This document shows positions 23,426-39,213 of a stretch of 40,110 nt of DNA, piece after piece. Both the position numbers and the translations under genes were made by a program. Positions within the stretch are counted from its first letter, which is position 1; every line of letters begins with the position of its first letter. Where the stretch lies: NCBI GenBank assembly GCA_001821765.1, contig MHOA01000011.1, positions 1 through 40,110 on the forward strand, given 5' to 3'. Under the pieces are notes generated by a model. The model was not told the DNA's origin, made no database searches, and saw only the letters and a program-made list of their open reading frames with translations. The DNA is from Candidatus Ryanbacteria bacterium RIFCSPLOWO2_12_FULL_44_26. Its GTDB lineage: Bacteria > Patescibacteriota > Minisyncoccia > Ryanbacterales > HO2-45-13.

Positions 23426-25648
23426 ATGTTTGGTTTGATGTTGAAAGCTCGGTTTCGTATGTTTGCCCATCGACAACGCTCGGGACAAGCCCTTCGATAT
23501 AATTCAGGGCAGGCGGCGCTGACGCTGGTCATTTTCTTTCTTGTCGTAATGCTTGCGGTTATTTTTGGATTTTCGCGCGTTGCGCTTACTGAAGCGGCAA
23601 TGGTGAGAGAACTTGTCAATTCAAAGAAAAGCTATGCGGCTGCGGAATCGGGCGTTGAAGATATGCTATACCGTATGAAAAATCCGAGCATGGTTGTTGA
23701 TGATGTTGAAGCGCTTAGCGTCGGCGGCGTTGGAGTAACAACGACAAGAACCGACACGGGAGGCGGGAGTTTTGAACTCAATTCCGTCGCCAATGCTGAT
23801 CGCGCAATTAGAAAAGCAAAAGTAACAGTTAGCGAGATCATCGGCGCTTCTTTTTACTACGGCATGCAGGTTGGATATTTGGGTTTGGAGATGTCCAATT
23901 CGGCCGCGGTGAAAGGAAACGTATTTTCCAACGGTTCTATCAATAGAACAGGCGTAAGTGGACAGCCGAGAATCACCGGAGGCGTTTTCGTGGCGGACGG
24001 AATTGCCGGCACTGCTGATGCGAAGGCGAAGTTTCCGCTTCCCCAGTGTTTAAACCTTATAAACGACGACGGCGTTGGAGGGACCGATGCTTCAGACGCC
24101 GATTGCTACAATCCGTCCTATAATCCCTTTGGGAAAGACGAAGGCAGTGCGGCCGCCGGTTTGGTGCCTCACGAAGTTCATAAACAGAGGGATATACTTT
24201 GGAGAAAATTTCTCGCGCAGTCGTTTGTGTCGTCTGTTACGGCGGAGCCGTTTGAGATAAAGCTTTTAGGAAGGAAATGCGGAAACCCCACCAGCGGCGG
24301 AAACATCAAAATCTTTTCGTATGGCGACGGCGAGTTTCTTAATACCGGTATTGTTATTGCGAATGCCTCCTTTGATGAGAACGACTTCAATCTTGCGAAC
24401 TGCGCGGATGCTAATGACGGCTGGAGGGTTATATCTAAAAATTTTACCACCACCGGGCCCATCAACGCTGATACGCCTTATTGGCTGGTGATCAGCTCTT
24501 CTTATTATGACTCGGGAAAATATTATGAATGGGCGGGCGGTGATGGTGGAGACGCCGGAGCAGGCGATAATTACATACAATATGTGGGAGCTACGCCGTA
24601 CGGCAAGATCAGATACACGCAGGATGTTGACTGGAGATTGTTTGATAATGAGGGATATTTCCAACCGCAAGACCCCGGGGACGACATCTTCTTTGAGCTT
24701 TTTATGGGAGAGGAAAGCGCTTCCACGAAAATACAGGATATTATCATCGGAGAAGATTGCGCTGACGGCCTTGACAATGACGGAGACGGGCTTATTGATT
24801 TGGCCGACACAGCAGGGTGCGCGAGCGCGACTGATTTAGATGAAACGGACGGCAGTGCCCCGAATGCATGCCCGGATGAAGCGCATGCCCATAAAATTAT
24901 TAATGTAAACTTATATGCCAACGCGTATGTGGATCCGGGCGGCAGAACCGGAGGATCGCTTGATCCAAAATGCACGGAAAATCCCTATACAACCGTCCTT
25001 CCCGCCGACCCGCCCATCACTGACGCGCAGGAGCAAGCATGGGTGGACGAGGCGACAGCCGGCGGCAATTGCCAGAATTTAAGTTGGTGCAGTCCCTATC
25101 TTGACGTGAATGGAAATTTTATTCTTTCGGGGACCGTTCCAACGGACCCGGTGGTATTTCAGGGCCCTGTGAAAATAAGCGGCGACTTTACGGTGCAGAA
25201 CCAGCGAAAGCTCACGATAGGAGGGGCTGTTTATGTGACAGGGGCCATTCTTATACAGGATTATGCGGAAATTCGGGTGGACGAATCGTTCGGAGAAAAA
25301 AGCGGGGTTATCATATCGGATGGAACAGTGGAAGTTCTCAACCGGAGCGGTCTTTTTGGAACGTCCGATCCAAAAAGTTATTTGGTGGTCTTATCGCGCC
25401 ATCCGTCTCTTGGAGAGGGCGAACCGGCTGCGGTTGAGATCCATGACAGAGCCGAAGGAGCGGTTTTTTATGCCGCGCACGGAGCGGTAGAAATTACAAA
25501 CACAGTAAAACTGCATGCGGTGTACGGCCACAAAGTCATCATAAAAGACAATTCTTTGATTGAATACGAAGAAGGCCTGAAGAATTTGCTGTTTAGCGAA
25601 GGCCCGACCGGAAGTTACGGCATTGATGACTGGCGGGAAGCTCCCTAA
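23426..25648 (+). CDS. large PilX/GspK-like pilus tip protein
   Basis: 740 residues, far larger than usual minor pilins. Residues 27-50 (SGQAALTLVIFFLVVML) look like a prepilin site lacking the +5 Glu, as in GspK and PilX, and YAAAESGVEDMLYR (70-83) is the PilX/GspK helix motif. A large middle region carries a cysteine-framed acidic loop CADGLDNDGDGLIDLAD (445-461), resembling calcium-binding repeats. Near the C-terminus, ISGDFTV, LTIGGAVYVTGAILI and GVIISDGTVEV read as a right-handed beta-helix like bactofilins or polymer-forming proteins. As the fourth minor pilin gene it would cap the fibre and contact surfaces. Its leader carries an in-frame copy of a dispersed repeat. Confidence 0.75.
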   Translation: MFGLMLKARFRMFAHRQRSGQALRYNSGQAALTLVIFFLVVMLAVIFGFSRVALTEAAMVRELVNSKKSYAAAESGVEDMLYRMKNPSMVVDDVEALSVGGVGVTTTRTDTGGGSFELNSVANADRAIRKAKVTVSEIIGASFYYGMQVGYLGLEMSNSAAVKGNVFSNGSINRTGVSGQPRITGGVFVADGIAGTADAKAKFPLPQCLNLINDDGVGGTDASDADCYNPSYNPFGKDEGSAAAGLVPHEVHKQRDILWRKFLAQSFVSSVTAEPFEIKLLGRKCGNPTSGGNIKIFSYGDGEFLNTGIVIANASFDENDFNLANCADANDGWRVISKNFTTTGPINADTPYWLVISSSYYDSGKYYEWAGGDGGDAGAGDNYIQYVGATPYGKIRYTQDVDWRLFDNEGYFQPQDPGDDIFFELFMGEESASTKIQDIIIGEDCADGLDNDGDGLIDLADTAGCASATDLDETDGSAPNACPDEAHAHKIINVNLYANAYVDPGGRTGGSLDPKCTENPYTTVLPADPPITDAQEQAWVDEATAGGNCQNLSWCSPYLDVNGNFILSGTVPTDPVVFQGPVKISGDFTVQNQRKLTIGGAVYVTGAILIQDYAEIRVDESFGEKSGVIISDGTVEVLNRSGLFGTSDPKSYLVVLSRHPSLGEGEPAAVEIHDRAEGAVFYAAHGAVEITNTVKLHAVYGHKVIIKDNSLIEYEEGLKNLLFSEGPTGSYGIDDWREAP
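23489..23510. repeat. dispersed short repeat copy inside the PilX/GspK-like gene
   Basis: GCCCTTCGATATAATTCAGGGC matches, on the opposite strand, the family NCCTGARY..ATCGAAGGN also found at 32251, 33222 and 33461 in this window. It sits in frame in the prepilin leader of the 740-residue gene. Confidence 0.6.
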
Positions 25649-25665
25649 CGCCTTACAATAAACGT

Positions 25666-26745
25666 ATGAGAATTGTGCCGCGTCTTCCTAAAAGTTTGCG
25701 TCTTCCCGTTGTGGGTTTGGACATTTCCGATCGGACGTTTAAGTTTGTGAAGTTTAGAAAGGAAAAGAAAAGATTCAGCATTGATTTTTACGGCCAAGGA
25801 TCAATTCCCGACGGCGTTGTGGTTTCGGGCGAGATTAAGGATGTGGAAAAACTCTCGTATGTGCTGGCCCAGACGCTGCAGTCGCATCTTAAAAAAGGCC
25901 CCCTGCCTGTTGCCTATTCGCTTCCCGAAGAGAGGGGGTTTGTGCGGCTCGTTGAGCTTCCGAGCGTAGAGGAGGAAGAAATAAAAAGCGTTGTAAGACT
26001 CCAGCTTGAGGAAAACTTCCCTCTCTCGCCCGAGAATACCGTGTTTGATTATGAGATTTTGAGAATGGCAGGAGGGCAAAAGCATATGGATCTCGTCATT
26101 TCTGCCTTTCCGCGGGAGATTGTTGAATCGTATATGGTATCTCTCCAGGGCGCCGGTCTTAAACCCGTTATTGCCGAGACGGAGTCCCAAGCCCTTGCGC
26201 GCGCCGTGGTGCCCTCTTATGAACGAGGGTCTGTGATGATTGTGGATATCGGGTATACACGCACCAGTTTTTTCATTGCGCATCGGGGTATTGTGCGTTT
26301 TACCTCAACGGTAAATTTTTCCGGTCAGGAACTTATCCGTTCAATCATGATGGCATTGGGCGTTGATGAGAAAAAGGCGGTGAGGTTGAAAAATGAGTTT
26401 TCGTTCTTTCGGGAGGATCAGCGAAAAATCTATGAAGCGATTACGCCGTCTATCGATGGGCTAAAAGATGAGTTGAAAAAAAGACTTTTATTTTGGGAAA
26501 CGCATGAAACGGAGGCCCCTGGTCACCGGAACATAACGGTTGTAGAAAGGATATATTTGACCGGAGGCGAGTCGCACATGGTCGGTCTTCCGGAATATTT
26601 GGCATCGGTTCTGAATGTTTCTGTTGAGCGCGCCCAGCCGTGGGAAGGCATTTTCGATCTCGAAACATACATCCCTCCCATCTCTGCGCACGACGCGCTT
26701 TTGTATGCAACCGCTTTTGGGCTCGCGTTAAGGCACGAATTATAG
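25666..26745 (+). CDS. pilM: type IV pilus assembly protein PilM
   Basis: 359 residues with an actin/FtsA-like fold. Visible are the phosphate-1 strand VGLDISDRTFKFVKF (16-30), SLPEERGFVRLVELP (85-99), the phosphate-2 segment VDIGYTRTSFF (193-203) and the C-terminal LTGGESHMVGLPEYL. PilM sits in the cytoplasm and binds the PilN N-terminus, which links the motor to the alignment complex. TACAAT lies 6 bases before the start codon, so an extra internal promoter is possible. The gene is 17 bases after the minor pilins and 2 bases before pilN. Confidence 0.95.
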   Translation: MRIVPRLPKSLRLPVVGLDISDRTFKFVKFRKEKKRFSIDFYGQGSIPDGVVVSGEIKDVEKLSYVLAQTLQSHLKKGPLPVAYSLPEERGFVRLVELPSVEEEEIKSVVRLQLEENFPLSPENTVFDYEILRMAGGQKHMDLVISAFPREIVESYMVSLQGAGLKPVIAETESQALARAVVPSYERGSVMIVDIGYTRTSFFIAHRGIVRFTSTVNFSGQELIRSIMMALGVDEKKAVRLKNEFSFFREDQRKIYEAITPSIDGLKDELKKRLLFWETHETEAPGHRNITVVERIYLTGGESHMVGLPEYLASVLNVSVERAQPWEGIFDLETYIPPISAHDALLYATAFGLALRHEL

Positions 26746-26747
26746 GT

Positions 26748-27284
26748 ATGGCGATGAACCTTTTACCGGATTCCTACAAAAAGACGCTCTTTTTTGAGCG
26801 CGCCAGGAGATTTACGCGGTTTGCCGGTTCGTTGCTTACGCTGGTTGTTATTACAGGCGTTGTGCTTTTGCTTCCGTCTTATTTCTTTCTTTATTTTCAG
26901 GAAGCAGAACTTGCGCGCGCTGTTGCCGCTGTTGAAAGGGGCGAGCGGTTAGTTGAAATAAAGGAGTTGAAAAACCGTCTGGCCCGGTCTAATGAATTAA
27001 TGGAGCGTTTGGATCGGTTTCAAAAAAAACAGATCCCGATTGTTGCAATTTTTGAAGATATTATTAATCGGACTCCTCCCGGAATTGTTTACACCAGCAT
27101 CAATTACAGTAAAAGCCAAAATTTGATTGCCATTAACGGGAAAGCGCCAAGGCCCGTTGATATTATAGCGTTAGATGCGGCTTTGGAAAAAAGCGAGTTT
27201 GTACAAAGCTCGGTGTATCCTTTAACCAGCTTGCTTGGGGACAGAGATATTGCCTTTACGCTTAATATTACCGTGCAGTATTAA
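26748..27284 (+). CDS. pilN: type IV pilus assembly protein PilN
   Basis: 178 residues. The N-terminus MAMNLLPDSYKK is the PilN motif (NLLP) that docks into PilM. One membrane helix (about 24-47) is followed by a coiled coil (about 50-85) and a periplasmic-type ferredoxin-like domain (about 90-178). I chose the ATG after the pilM stop; the longer open frame lies inside pilM and is not PilN-like. PilN pairs with PilO to form the alignment complex. Confidence 0.9.
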   Translation: MAMNLLPDSYKKTLFFERARRFTRFAGSLLTLVVITGVVLLLPSYFFLYFQEAELARAVAAVERGERLVEIKELKNRLARSNELMERLDRFQKKQIPIVAIFEDIINRTPPGIVYTSINYSKSQNLIAINGKAPRPVDIIALDAALEKSEFVQSSVYPLTSLLGDRDIAFTLNITVQY

Positions 27285-27287
27285 ATT

Positions 27288-27818
27288 ATGAACCCCGCAA
27301 AAAGAACGTTCCTTTTTACGCTTGGCGGTGTCGTTGCATTTAATGTCGGACTCATCGGTATGGGGATTTGGTTATTTGTCGGTGAGATTAACTCGCGCTA
27401 TAGTTCCATAAGGACATTACAGATGAAGTTTGACGCTTTTGAACAACAACAGCAGTCGGCTGGTTCTATAGAAAAGGCGCTTGAGCAAGTTGAGCCGGAA
27501 GCCGAAAAAATTGAAAAAGCGTTTTTTGCGTATTCTGAGGATTCTTTTTTCGCTCTCACCGAACTCTTAAGGGAAATGGCCAGCCAAAGCAATCTGGTGA
27601 TCAATTTGCGTTCGGTTGATATTCCCCTACAGCCTGCAGCAGGCGTTCCATTGACGTTTACGGTTTCTCTTACGGGAAAGTTTGAGAATGTTATGCGATT
27701 TATCATGCTTGTAAAAAACGCCCCGATATTCATGGAGCACGGAGATATCGGCTTCAGCGCATCAGGCAGCGAAGGCGTTGTTTCAGCGACGTTGACCTTA
27801 GTTGTGGGAAGTTTATGA
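27288..27818 (+). CDS. pilO: type IV pilus assembly protein PilO-like
   Basis: 176 residues. One N-terminal membrane helix (about 9-31), then a coiled coil (about 35-75, LQMKFDAFEQQQQ and QVEPEAEKIEKAFF), then a small alpha/beta domain typical of PilO (LLREMASQSNLVINL, TFTVSLTGKFENVMRFI). The conserved fold element 'F..l..f...le' is recognisable at FENVMRFIMLVKNAP. It is expected to dimerise with PilN. Its stop overlaps the next start by four bases. Confidence 0.85.
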   Translation: MNPAKRTFLFTLGGVVAFNVGLIGMGIWLFVGEINSRYSSIRTLQMKFDAFEQQQQSAGSIEKALEQVEPEAEKIEKAFFAYSEDSFFALTELLREMASQSNLVINLRSVDIPLQPAAGVPLTFTVSLTGKFENVMRFIMLVKNAPIFMEHGDIGFSASGSEGVVSATLTLVVGSL

Positions 27819-36010: not shown

Positions 36011-36346
36011 ATGACTGTAAATTGGAAAATATGGGCGCCGCTCGGCATTATAGCAGTAGCGATTCTTGTCATGGTCGGTTTTTATCAGTCCGGAATAAAA
36101 CCCTTTCAAGCGCCAACTGCTGAAGAAGAAATGCAACCGCTGGTTGCCGTAGAAAAGCAACAAGAACAACCGATTGTGGTAAAACCTGCCACTGGCAATG
36201 TTGATGACGCGGTGAACGCAATCCTTGTCGGCATTTCTGACGACGAAGCGTTCTTTGCCGATGCGGTAAAAGACGCCGAATTGATTGCCGCCGACAGTCA
36301 GGCGATTAGTGATTTTGGTCAATCATACAATGAAAATGAATTCTAA
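36011..36346 (+). CDS. small single-pass membrane protein, unknown function
   Basis: 111 residues. A short basic/aromatic N-terminus MTVNWKIW precedes one helix (about 9-26, APLGIIAVAILVMVGFY). A long Glu/Gln/Pro-rich outer part follows (TAEEEMQPLVAVEKQQEQP) and an acidic, partly helical end with SDDEAFFADAVKDAELIAADSQAISDF. It is probably anchored with its C-terminus outside. A TATAAT box lies at 36002-36007, just before the ATG. Its 3' end overlaps the next gene by 17 bases, so the two are likely expressed together. Confidence 0.65.
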   Translation: MTVNWKIWAPLGIIAVAILVMVGFYQSGIKPFQAPTAEEEMQPLVAVEKQQEQPIVVKPATGNVDDAVNAILVGISDDEAFFADAVKDAELIAADSQAISDFGQSYNENEF

Positions 36347-37076
36347 GAAATTATTTACCGGTATTCTCGGAATGGCGATGACAACAAATCTTCTCTTGCC
36401 TATTGCCTCGTTTGCCCAAGAAACTCCGGCTGCAAATAGATTCTGCTCAAGGATCGATCAAATTTTTTCTCCGATTGACCAACGAATTGCTGATCGGGAA
36501 GCAATATTGCAGGCAAAGCGCCAAGAGCGATCGGATAATCTTACAGAGCGAAGGAGCGAACGGGAGGAACGTCGATCGGAAAATCGAACTCTGCGGGACA
36601 CAAATCGCGAGGAGCACTACGCTAAATTAGAAGCGCGGGCAACCACTGACGCGCAAAAGCAGGCAGTCGCTGCTTTTAAAGCGGCAGTTGAATCGGCGGT
36701 AAGCGCGCGAAAAAGCGCTGTTGACGCGGCCATAAGTGCGTTTAAGCAGAGCGTGGATCAAGCGATTGCATCGCGAAAGTCAGCAGTTGACGCGGCAATA
36801 AGCGCGTTCAAAAACTCAAGGGCTGCCGCAGTTGAAAAAGCCAAGGCCGACTGTGCGGCAGGCGTTGATTCAAAAACGGTTCGCGAGACATTCCGAGCGA
36901 ATATGAAAGCGGCACAAGATAAATTCAAAAGCGACCGGCAGGCGATTGAAAAGTTAAAAGATTCGCTTGAACCGATTCGTGCCGCAAAAAAAGCAGAGGT
37001 GGAAAAAGCAATTGCTGATTTCAAAGCCGCAATGGAAAAAGCGCGCGCTGATCTGAAAGCCGCGTTCCAGCAATAA
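36330..37076 (+). CDS. secreted helical protein with 11-residue (hendecad) repeats
   Basis: 248 residues. A signal peptide (about 1-29, with LFTGILGMAMTTNLLLPIASFAQ) is followed by a charged helical region and then regular 11-residue repeats: KAAVESAVSAR (117-127), KSAVDAAISAF, KQSVDQAIASR, KSAVDAAISAF and KNSRAAAVEKA (161-171). The same period returns at 221-242. Hendecads form long right-handed coiled coils or membrane-surface helices. Two cysteines (Cys39 and Cys175) could form a disulfide. The start ATG 6 bases later would drop two residues. Followed by a perfect terminator. Function unknown; a role on the cell surface beside the membrane protein upstream is likely. Confidence 0.75.
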   Translation: MKMNSKKLFTGILGMAMTTNLLLPIASFAQETPAANRFCSRIDQIFSPIDQRIADREAILQAKRQERSDNLTERRSEREERRSENRTLRDTNREEHYAKLEARATTDAQKQAVAAFKAAVESAVSARKSAVDAAISAFKQSVDQAIASRKSAVDAAISAFKNSRAAAVEKAKADCAAGVDSKTVRETFRANMKAAQDKFKSDRQAIEKLKDSLEPIRAAKKAEVEKAIADFKAAMEKARADLKAAFQQ

Positions 37077-37104: not shown

Positions 37105-37140
37105 AACTAAAATCCGGCTTACGCCGGATTTTAGTTTATT
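37105..37140 (+). terminator. terminator of the hendecad protein operon
   Basis: Perfect 14-bp stem aactaaaatccggc / gccggattttagtt with TTAC loop, followed by TATT. Confidence 0.9.
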
Positions 37141-37524
37141 GTCGTTGTTCTGAAAATTTGGTAAGATAATATTTAATTAAGGTAGCACACCCCGCCTTGC
37201 GAAGCGGGAAAAGTTGCGGCAGCGAAGAAAGAAACGGCGAAAGCGATGACGGTCAAAAATTCCTTCCCCCAGCCCCATTCTTTTTGTCAGCCCGAGCGCT
37301 CAGTTTTTGTTTTACCAAGCTTCGTTCGGCAATCAGTCGGGATTTTGTTTAAAATGAGTTATGACTTTTTCCAACAAACACCATTTACTAAATTAGATTC
37401 TTTGTTCACACGTCAACTAAGTTTAGAGAAAGTATTTTGCGTTGGTTTGACGTCGGCGTGCGCTTTCTGGCGGCAACATGTGCCGCTCTTTTATCGATTC
37501 AGATGAATCAAGTATAATAGGAAT
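37141..37524. other. intergenic region with no supported gene
   Basis: Short open frames here have no protein-like composition or motif. A hairpin-like CCCGC...GCGGG lies at 37193-37208. A TATAAT box at 37513-37518 ends 6 bases before the next gene. Nothing else is clear. Confidence 0.5.
37513..37518 (+). promoter_or_regulatory. -10 box giving a probably leaderless transcript
   Basis: A consensus TATAAT with only 6 bases before the ATG at 37525. No good -35 is seen at 16-18 bases. Confidence 0.5.
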
Positions 37525-39213
37525 ATGCTTTTTGGGCGTTCGGGGTTTCCATGGAACAGATCAGTTGGTTTATATATCACTGATGAAGTCGTTGAAGTTG
37601 CTGAAGTGGTCAGCGTTTTTGGCAGAAAACGGGTTACAAGCCTTGGTGAGAAGCAGTTGCAGGAGGGCATTGTTCAAAATGGCAGAATCAAAAACGAAGC
37701 GGCGCTCACGGAAGCGTTAAGAGAAGCTTTTTCGAACGCCCGTCCGCATCCGATACATGTAAAGAGCATTATTTTTGGTTTGCCGGAAAGTCAGGTGTAT
37801 ATTCATACGTTCAGCGCCTATCCGCATGCTTTAAATGAAAGGAGAGAATTGGTTTTAGAACAGATACGCAAGCAAATCTCGGCACCGGAAGATTCATTAC
37901 TTTTTACATATAGGACTATTCCCCGATATAGAGGCGGCTCAAAGCGGGCAAACAAAAAGGATGTTGAGATTATCGTTGCCGCTACCACAAGAGATGTTAT
38001 TTCAGAGTGGAAGGGGTTTTTTAACAAACTGCATATTAATGTGGAGATATTTGATATTGAGCCGCTTGCTACTTTCAGAGGGCTTTTTATCAAACCCCCC
38101 GCCTCCCCGGTGTGTATTATTGATGTTCGAGATGATAAAACGATCATTTCCGTTTTTGATCGTTCAGGAATCCGTTATATCTCTGCCGTTGCCGCAACGA
38201 GCGATGCGCTTTCTAAAATGGTAGAACACGTTCTGCCGGAAACGGCGAAAGAGGATGGATCATTGGAAGCATTGAGTTCTTTAAAAAGTGAGCACATAAA
38301 AGTAGCTTCACTGCCGCATAAAACCGTTGAGCTTTTACTTAAGGAAGTTGAGGCGGCGCGTTCGTACATAAACGACACGACAGGTAACGATATATCCGAA
38401 GTAATTTTTGTTGGTGATGCGGAGAAGTTTAAAGTCTTGTTAAAACGCTTTCGCGTTCGTTTGGAGCTCTGGGTTCGTGTTGGAAAGCCGGCGCTGCCTA
38501 TGAAGATCGCTGAAGATGGTGAAGGTTCTGTGACTCCGGAAGAAGATGAGGAGATACCGCCGAACCGGCGTCCTTCCGGAGCTGTGCAATACATAGAGAC
38601 GATCGGCCTTGCGTTTAGAAAATGGGAAGGCGGAGATCTGGGGTTTTATTTGCCGTCTGAAAAGCAGAAGCCTTCTTATAACCTAAGCGCTCTTAAAGAA
38701 CAGCGTCGAGTGCATCGCCCGACTTTTAAGGAATGGGTGGAAGGAAAAAAAGAAAGTAAAAAAGCCGCTGATGCGCTTGTTATTCACCATATAGAAATTA
38801 CAAAGCCGCTTTCTTTTAGAAAAAAAATATGGATCGGCGGAATTGCCTCGACGCTTGTTGTGATTGTGGCGATAACGCTTTGGAGTTTCGGAGGCGGTTT
38901 TGTTTTTAAACGGGATGTTCAGCGGGAAACAACCCCCAACAGCAAGCTTTCTGATATTGTTGTTCCAAGCGATGGAGCAACCGATGTCCCGCTGAAAAAT
39001 GTTCCTTCCGGACCTGCAATATTGGTTAAAGAAACAGAGACCGGCTGGCTGAATGTGAGGGAGGAGCCAAGCATCTCAAGCAGGATACTCAAGAAGATTT
39101 TGCCGGGGGAAACCTATCCGCTCATAGAAAAAGGAGAGAAATGGCATAAAATTAAACTCCCCGATGGCAGGGAAGGGTGGGTATATAATTATTACGTGCA
39201 GGAGATTGAGTAA
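37525..39213 (+). CDS. PilM-like protein fused to a membrane helix and an SH3b domain
   Basis: 562 residues in three parts. Residues 1-360 resemble PilM: SVGLYITDEVVEVAEV (13-28), IIFGLPESQVYIHTF (82-96), FDIEPLATFRGLF (176-188), CIIDVRDDKTIISVFD (197-212) and VIFVGDAEKF (293-302). Nucleotide-binding glycines are poor. Residues 435-458 are one membrane helix (IWIGGIASTLVVIVAITLW). Residues 498-562 are a bacterial SH3 domain: GWLNVREEPSISSRIL, GEKWHKIKLPDGREGWVYNYYV. The PilM part should be cytoplasmic and the SH3b part outside, touching cell wall or other surface. It may couple a pilus-like machine to the envelope (inference). The genuine pilM is at 25666. The gene is followed by an inverted repeat and is monocistronic. 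Confidence 0.8.
   Translation: MLFGRSGFPWNRSVGLYITDEVVEVAEVVSVFGRKRVTSLGEKQLQEGIVQNGRIKNEAALTEALREAFSNARPHPIHVKSIIFGLPESQVYIHTFSAYPHALNERRELVLEQIRKQISAPEDSLLFTYRTIPRYRGGSKRANKKDVEIIVAATTRDVISEWKGFFNKLHINVEIFDIEPLATFRGLFIKPPASPVCIIDVRDDKTIISVFDRSGIRYISAVAATSDALSKMVEHVLPETAKEDGSLEALSSLKSEHIKVASLPHKTVELLLKEVEAARSYINDTTGNDISEVIFVGDAEKFKVLLKRFRVRLELWVRVGKPALPMKIAEDGEGSVTPEEDEEIPPNRRPSGAVQYIETIGLAFRKWEGGDLGFYLPSEKQKPSYNLSALKEQRRVHRPTFKEWVEGKKESKKAADALVIHHIEITKPLSFRKKIWIGGIASTLVVIVAITLWSFGGGFVFKRDVQRETTPNSKLSDIVVPSDGATDVPLKNVPSGPAILVKETETGWLNVREEPSISSRILKKILPGETYPLIEKGEKWHKIKLPDGREGWVYNYYVQEIE

Follow-up and report, generated by a model that had tools for sequence, protein, structure and literature searches.

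GspL, a type II secretion protein, has been described as PilM and PilN naturally fused into one protein, which binds the assembly ATPase (PMC6325625, PMC4471445). In Thermus, the N-terminus of PilN binds PilM (PMC6325625). Pili matter for host contact in Patescibacteria (PMC12206443). Genome size and gene content suggest that the bacteria considered here are of this group. The locus described here specifies a PilM-like domain, a membrane helix and an SH3b domain in one open reading frame. It is located in a 40,110 nt stretch of DNA, termed the window, which is a complete contig of an 890-kb genome. The open reading frame, termed the window gene, is at positions 37525–39213 of the + strand, and the PilM-derived family that contains it is given the name PilM* in this paper. 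The preferred reading, to which we assign a somewhat better than even chance, is that the window protein is a diverged stand-alone PilM*, i.e. a PilM::PilN fusion resembling GspL in which SH3b has taken the place of the outer domain, and that it is probably a scaffold.

The window gene and its parts

The window gene is a single gene of 562 aa with an open frame and full-length homologues in other genomes. Its codon-usage score is 0.179 per codon, which resembles that of the genes around it, and all five alternative frames have negative scores. A spurious open reading frame was considered and rejected.

The PilM_2 (actin-like) domain encompasses aa positions 15–331 (nt 37567–38517, + strand; Pfam PF11104, E 1e-9) and scores 38.3 bits, where 27 would suffice to pass the cut-off. 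The TIGR01175 (PilM) model gives 36.4 bits, far below its cut-off of 133. The protein has only one hydrophobic segment, a transmembrane helix predicted from hydropathy at positions 435–453 (nt 38827–38883, + strand; Kyte-Doolittle mean 2.18), and in this it is unlike soluble PilM. The original prediction of a single helix thus stands, however its extent, given as 435–458, is reduced. The C-terminal SH3b domain, previously placed at positions 498–562, is found at 509–559 (nt 39049–39201, + strand; SH3_3, PF08239, E 1.7e-11) and scores 44.5 bits, likewise above a cut-off of 27. The three-part architecture is therefore real, as the open frame, the Pfam domains, the helix and the codon usage all indicate.

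A profile made from six family members was compared with the PDB and matches experimental structures of PilM along the full extent of that protein (3jc8, 3.7e-33; 5eou, 5.9e-32; 2ych, 5e-19). Its C-terminal part matches bacterial SH3b structures. An AlphaFold2 model of the whole protein has a mean pLDDT of 37.7, from an alignment of two sequences, i.e. the window protein and the PilM of the window. Because of this low value, the actin-like fold of the PilM domain is supported by the homology and profile matches and not by the model. The SH3b part modelled alone reaches a pLDDT of 60 and gives weak structure matches, with bacterial SH3b domains first and none below E 0.001.

Surroundings, paralogues and relatives

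The window gene is solitary. A pattern scan detects a terminator-like hairpin with a 14-pair stem at positions 37105–37136, which divides it from the upstream gene, a convergent methyltransferase gene is next, and neither pilN nor pilO follows. An operon with the upstream gene was considered and is rejected, as the hairpin lies between the two. The window gene is thus outside any pilus operon and, since it is solo, its link to a pilus machine is by family only. The upstream gene (36330–37076) has a signal-peptide-like start and encodes a long helical protein rich in Lys, Ala and Glu that belongs to no family. The hexamer TATAAT at positions 37513–37518, which is absent from the output of the consensus scan, is separated from the ATG at 37525 by 6 bases; should it be the promoter, the transcript would be leaderless.

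Four PilM homologues, and not just the two first pointed out, are present in the genome: the window gene, a paralogue on contig C1, the pilM at 25666 and one on contig C3. The gene at 25666–26745 (+ strand) is an ordinary pilM, as had been stated (PF11104, 2.1e-38; TIGR01175, 137.5 bits against 133). It is followed by a pilN-like gene at 26748–27284 (Pfam, NCBIfam) and by a gene in the pilO position at 27288–27818 with a weak GspM match. The operon of the C3 pilM likewise has a PilN-like gene, and its pilO position is also occupied by a gene. The window gene had been described as a second paralogue of the gene at 25666. The two are homologous, however among the four PilMs the C1 copy is the nearest and the 25666 gene is distant. 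The pilus operon of the window also includes a 740-aa protein (23426–25648) that matches PilX_N weakly and contains double-disulfide repeats of acidic character.

The C1 paralogue is 669 aa long and 38% identical to the window protein in the PilM part, and it too has a helix and an SH3b domain. Its operon encodes PilB, a histidine kinase, a response regulator, PilC, pseudopilins, a PilX-like protein, PilM* and a pilin, the pilin gene directly following the PilM* gene. There is no PilN match in this operon, the PilN matches of the genome being confined to the other two pilus operons, and no PilO is seen in it either. One of the C1 pseudopilins (L006:3587-6583, G000 contig C1) has 998 aa and a YCF48-like beta-propeller (PF14870), and is possibly a tip adhesin; large proteins of 600 to 1700 aa are at the same spot in most related PilM* operons. 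Two PilB-type ATPases are found without surrounding pilus genes (G000:C6:38540-40213 and G000:C1:225228-226403).

Searches of the order, class and phylum covered more than 700 distinct genomes. The original prediction had suggested looking in CPR genomes for the same fusion and its gene neighbours, and the PilM-helix-SH3b arrangement is indeed found, with Pfam confirmation, in at least seven genomes: the present one (twice), G006, G181, G094, G013, G516 and G628. This is a lower bound, as scoring was restricted to a small number of candidates from each genome. Those of G006, G516 and G628 are in pilus-like operons, that of G181 adjoins pseudopilins on a short contig, and the copies of G094 and G013 are solo. 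These two solo SH3b relatives suggest that there may be a role outside of the operon. Profile scans of viral contigs with two alignments showed no relatives of the window protein, and a genome-contig scan with the window protein alone gave one match, of the SH3 part only, in a Clostridia contig.

PilM* is mostly found in a second type IV pilus-like operon with the order PilB, kinase, regulator, PilC, pseudopilins, PilM*, pilin. The gene after PilM* encodes an N-methylated pilin in all five loci tested with Pfam besides C1, and neither pilN nor pilO was seen in the operons of most PilM* relatives. An anchor that does without PilN, as originally envisaged, is therefore supported at the level of the family, by the C1 paralogue and most relatives.

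The C-termini of PilM* proteins at the same operon position vary and consist of no addition, a helix only, a PilN domain, SH3b or unnamed domains. Several PilM* proteins (L006:8858-9418, L129:6401-6883 and L131:7245-7700) share an outer domain that is roughly 150 aa long, includes a common WLxY stretch and has no Pfam match. Others (L028, L029 and L030, from G008, G007 and G009) are without the helix and have a Trp-rich end (GWWHLFTK and similar), perhaps a membrane-touching tail. Two proteins, of 1643 aa (L068:7971-12902, G203) and 785 aa (L069:271-2628, G040), display a long coiled-coil-like charged region before PilM, the motif INLLPEE and a final membrane helix.

Origin, nucleotide site and proposed mechanism

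In the phylum, soluble PilMs are followed by a separate PilN that starts with MINLLP or similar; the Thermus PilN start, MVIRLNLLPKN, read from a primer in PMC6325625, is of the same motif type. Three PilM* proteins end in such a PilN-start motif (GINLLKNIK, GINLLANL and IEINLLPKN), with the pilin next. In 11 relatives, among them the fusions to SH3b in G013 and G628, an INLLP-type motif is located shortly past GLALR, the close of the PilM domain, and the core group mostly has DPxLxL or similar at this place. True PilM-PilN fusions also occur in the phylum, and their loci show one weak PilO match (E 0.018). The simplest account of these sequences is that PilM* would be a PilM::PilN fusion in which the outer half of PilN has been lost or exchanged. 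The window protein has DLGFYLP at this place when aligned after GLALR (aa positions 371–377; nt 38635–38655, + strand), presumably the homologous segment, but too changed to prove the fusion by itself.

A tree separates PilM* from ordinary PilM with moderate support (85/78) and recovers the PilM* core with good support (96/99). The window protein and the C1 copy are sisters (97/66), on branches of 1.27 and 0.88, respectively. This fits an old duplication of the C1 gene that may have been followed by divergence.

The phosphate-1 motif of the window protein (aa positions 14–25, VGLYITDEVVEV; nt 37564–37599, + strand) is degenerate. In alignments Tyr replaces the first Asp, and Glu24 is at the position of Lys26 of Thermus PilM, the ATP-binding residue. 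Further changes are DVRDD for DIGA and GDAE for GGSS. Glu occupies the Lys26 column in 17 of 22 helix-bearing fusions versus 6 of 64 soluble homologues (Fisher p 4e-9, a value that ignores relatedness and in which a few genes are entered twice). The K26A mutation in Thermus PilM abolishes ATP binding, while contact with the ATPase and its stimulation are retained (PMC6325625), thus a dead nucleotide site is compatible with a platform role. The loss of nucleotide-binding residues suggests that the window protein is probably a scaffold.

In the proposed mechanism, the PilM domain would be cytoplasmic and face the assembly ATPase. A PilN-type docking segment and the membrane helix would come next in the same chain, with SH3b in place of the outer ferredoxin-like domain of PilN. 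The single chain would act in the manner of GspL and link a type IV pilus-like machine, on its motor side, to the membrane. The outer SH3b end of the chain would probably grip the cell wall or an outside partner, replacing PilN/PilO. SH3b domains do not all bind peptidoglycan or the wall. The window copy, as an old duplicate of the C1 operon copy, would most likely be a nucleotide-independent scaffold serving either the C1 machine or a different pilus machine in the same cell. For the family, a more general proposal can be given a little less than an even chance: a pilus-like machine free of PilN/PilO, built on a GspL-like PilM* in which the docking peptide of the lost PilN has become an internal latch on the PilM domain. 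Its exchangeable outer module (SH3b, an unnamed domain or none) would couple the motor to the membrane and wall.

The window protein could instead be a regulator or decoy that tunes pilus assembly and does not belong to the platform itself, its degenerate PilM domain competing for the ATPase or for PilN with either the C1 paralogue or the ordinary PilMs. A solo gene which appears from its flanks to be separately transcribed, a long branch and the degenerate nucleotide site would all agree with this. However, the solo copies of G094 and G013 keep the PilM motifs intact, and neither of these genomes yielded a further PilM-TM-SH3, thus there is no sister protein to inhibit. Inhibition of this type is considered unlikely, at about one chance in seven in our judgment.

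Rather less credible is a decaying, functionless duplicate of the C1 gene. The window protein has the longer branch of the pair and has lost conserved residues, yet its frame is intact and gene-like in codon usage throughout, the helix is kept, and its SH3b domain outscores that of the C1 copy. An anchor to membrane and wall for some other actin-like process, e.g. FtsA-like cell division, unrelated to pili, is improbable. The six-member profile also matches FtsA (1e-10) and MreB (8e-8) and solo copies exist, but its best PDB matches are all PilM and the relatives are in pilus operons. No division gene was seen beside any copy, and nothing indicates cell division, so that the division-like machine of the original prediction is set aside. 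Least probable of all is SH3b as a generic tail gained by chance and without part in the function, since, although PilM* outer modules are highly variable and may even be absent, the genome has two SH3_3 domains in all, each of them on a PilM* protein (the window protein and the C1 paralogue), and the same domain pair recurs in seven genomes.

Comparison with known systems

The preferred scaffold reading is of interest in that the boundary between PilM and PilN would be seen in the process of being joined, with the outer half of PilN exchanged for other modules. The family offers a natural test of what the outer domains of PilN and PilO are needed for and of whether the PilM nucleotide matters in motor coupling. 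The existence of a further pilus-like machine in bacteria with small genomes is suggested as well.

The cytoplasmic part of BfpC, an assembly protein of type IVb pili, is PilM-like, a likeness taken from its description (PMC4471445). The Pseudomonas aeruginosa PilM:PilN chimera 5eou is, by name and length, a PilM chain with a piece of PilN, and would be an artificial counterpart of those PilM* proteins whose last residues are INLL; it differs in being engineered, it has no membrane helix or SH3b, and its PilN part was not seen in the alignments. With type IVa PilM and PilN, the window protein shares the PilM_2 domain, and the placement of the PilN-type motif and helix is retained in PilM* relatives. 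In contrast to that pair, PilM*-SH3b is one chain, with no PilN outer domain, no PilO nearby and Glu in place of the ATP-binding Lys.

The likeness in topology is to GspL/EpsL/XpsL, which combine a PilM-like cytoplasmic domain, a single helix and an outer domain in the same polypeptide, as the window protein would. The outer domain of the window protein is however SH3b and not PilN-like or ferredoxin-like, and its sequence is closer to PilM; no GspL family model is among its Pfam and NCBIfam matches up to E 1. The view that the arrangement is new in kind was overstated, because GspL has the same topology (PMC6325625, PMC4471445) and PilM-PilN fusions are present in the phylum. Among open-licence texts, no paper was found that deals with PilM fused to SH3 or with a "natural fusion" of PilM, nor on an exchange of the PilN outer domain for SH3b in operons lacking PilN and PilO. 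The window protein and its relatives thus represent a rare variant of a known topology, in which the apparently new element is SH3b at the place of the outer domain of PilN, in operons without PilN/PilO.
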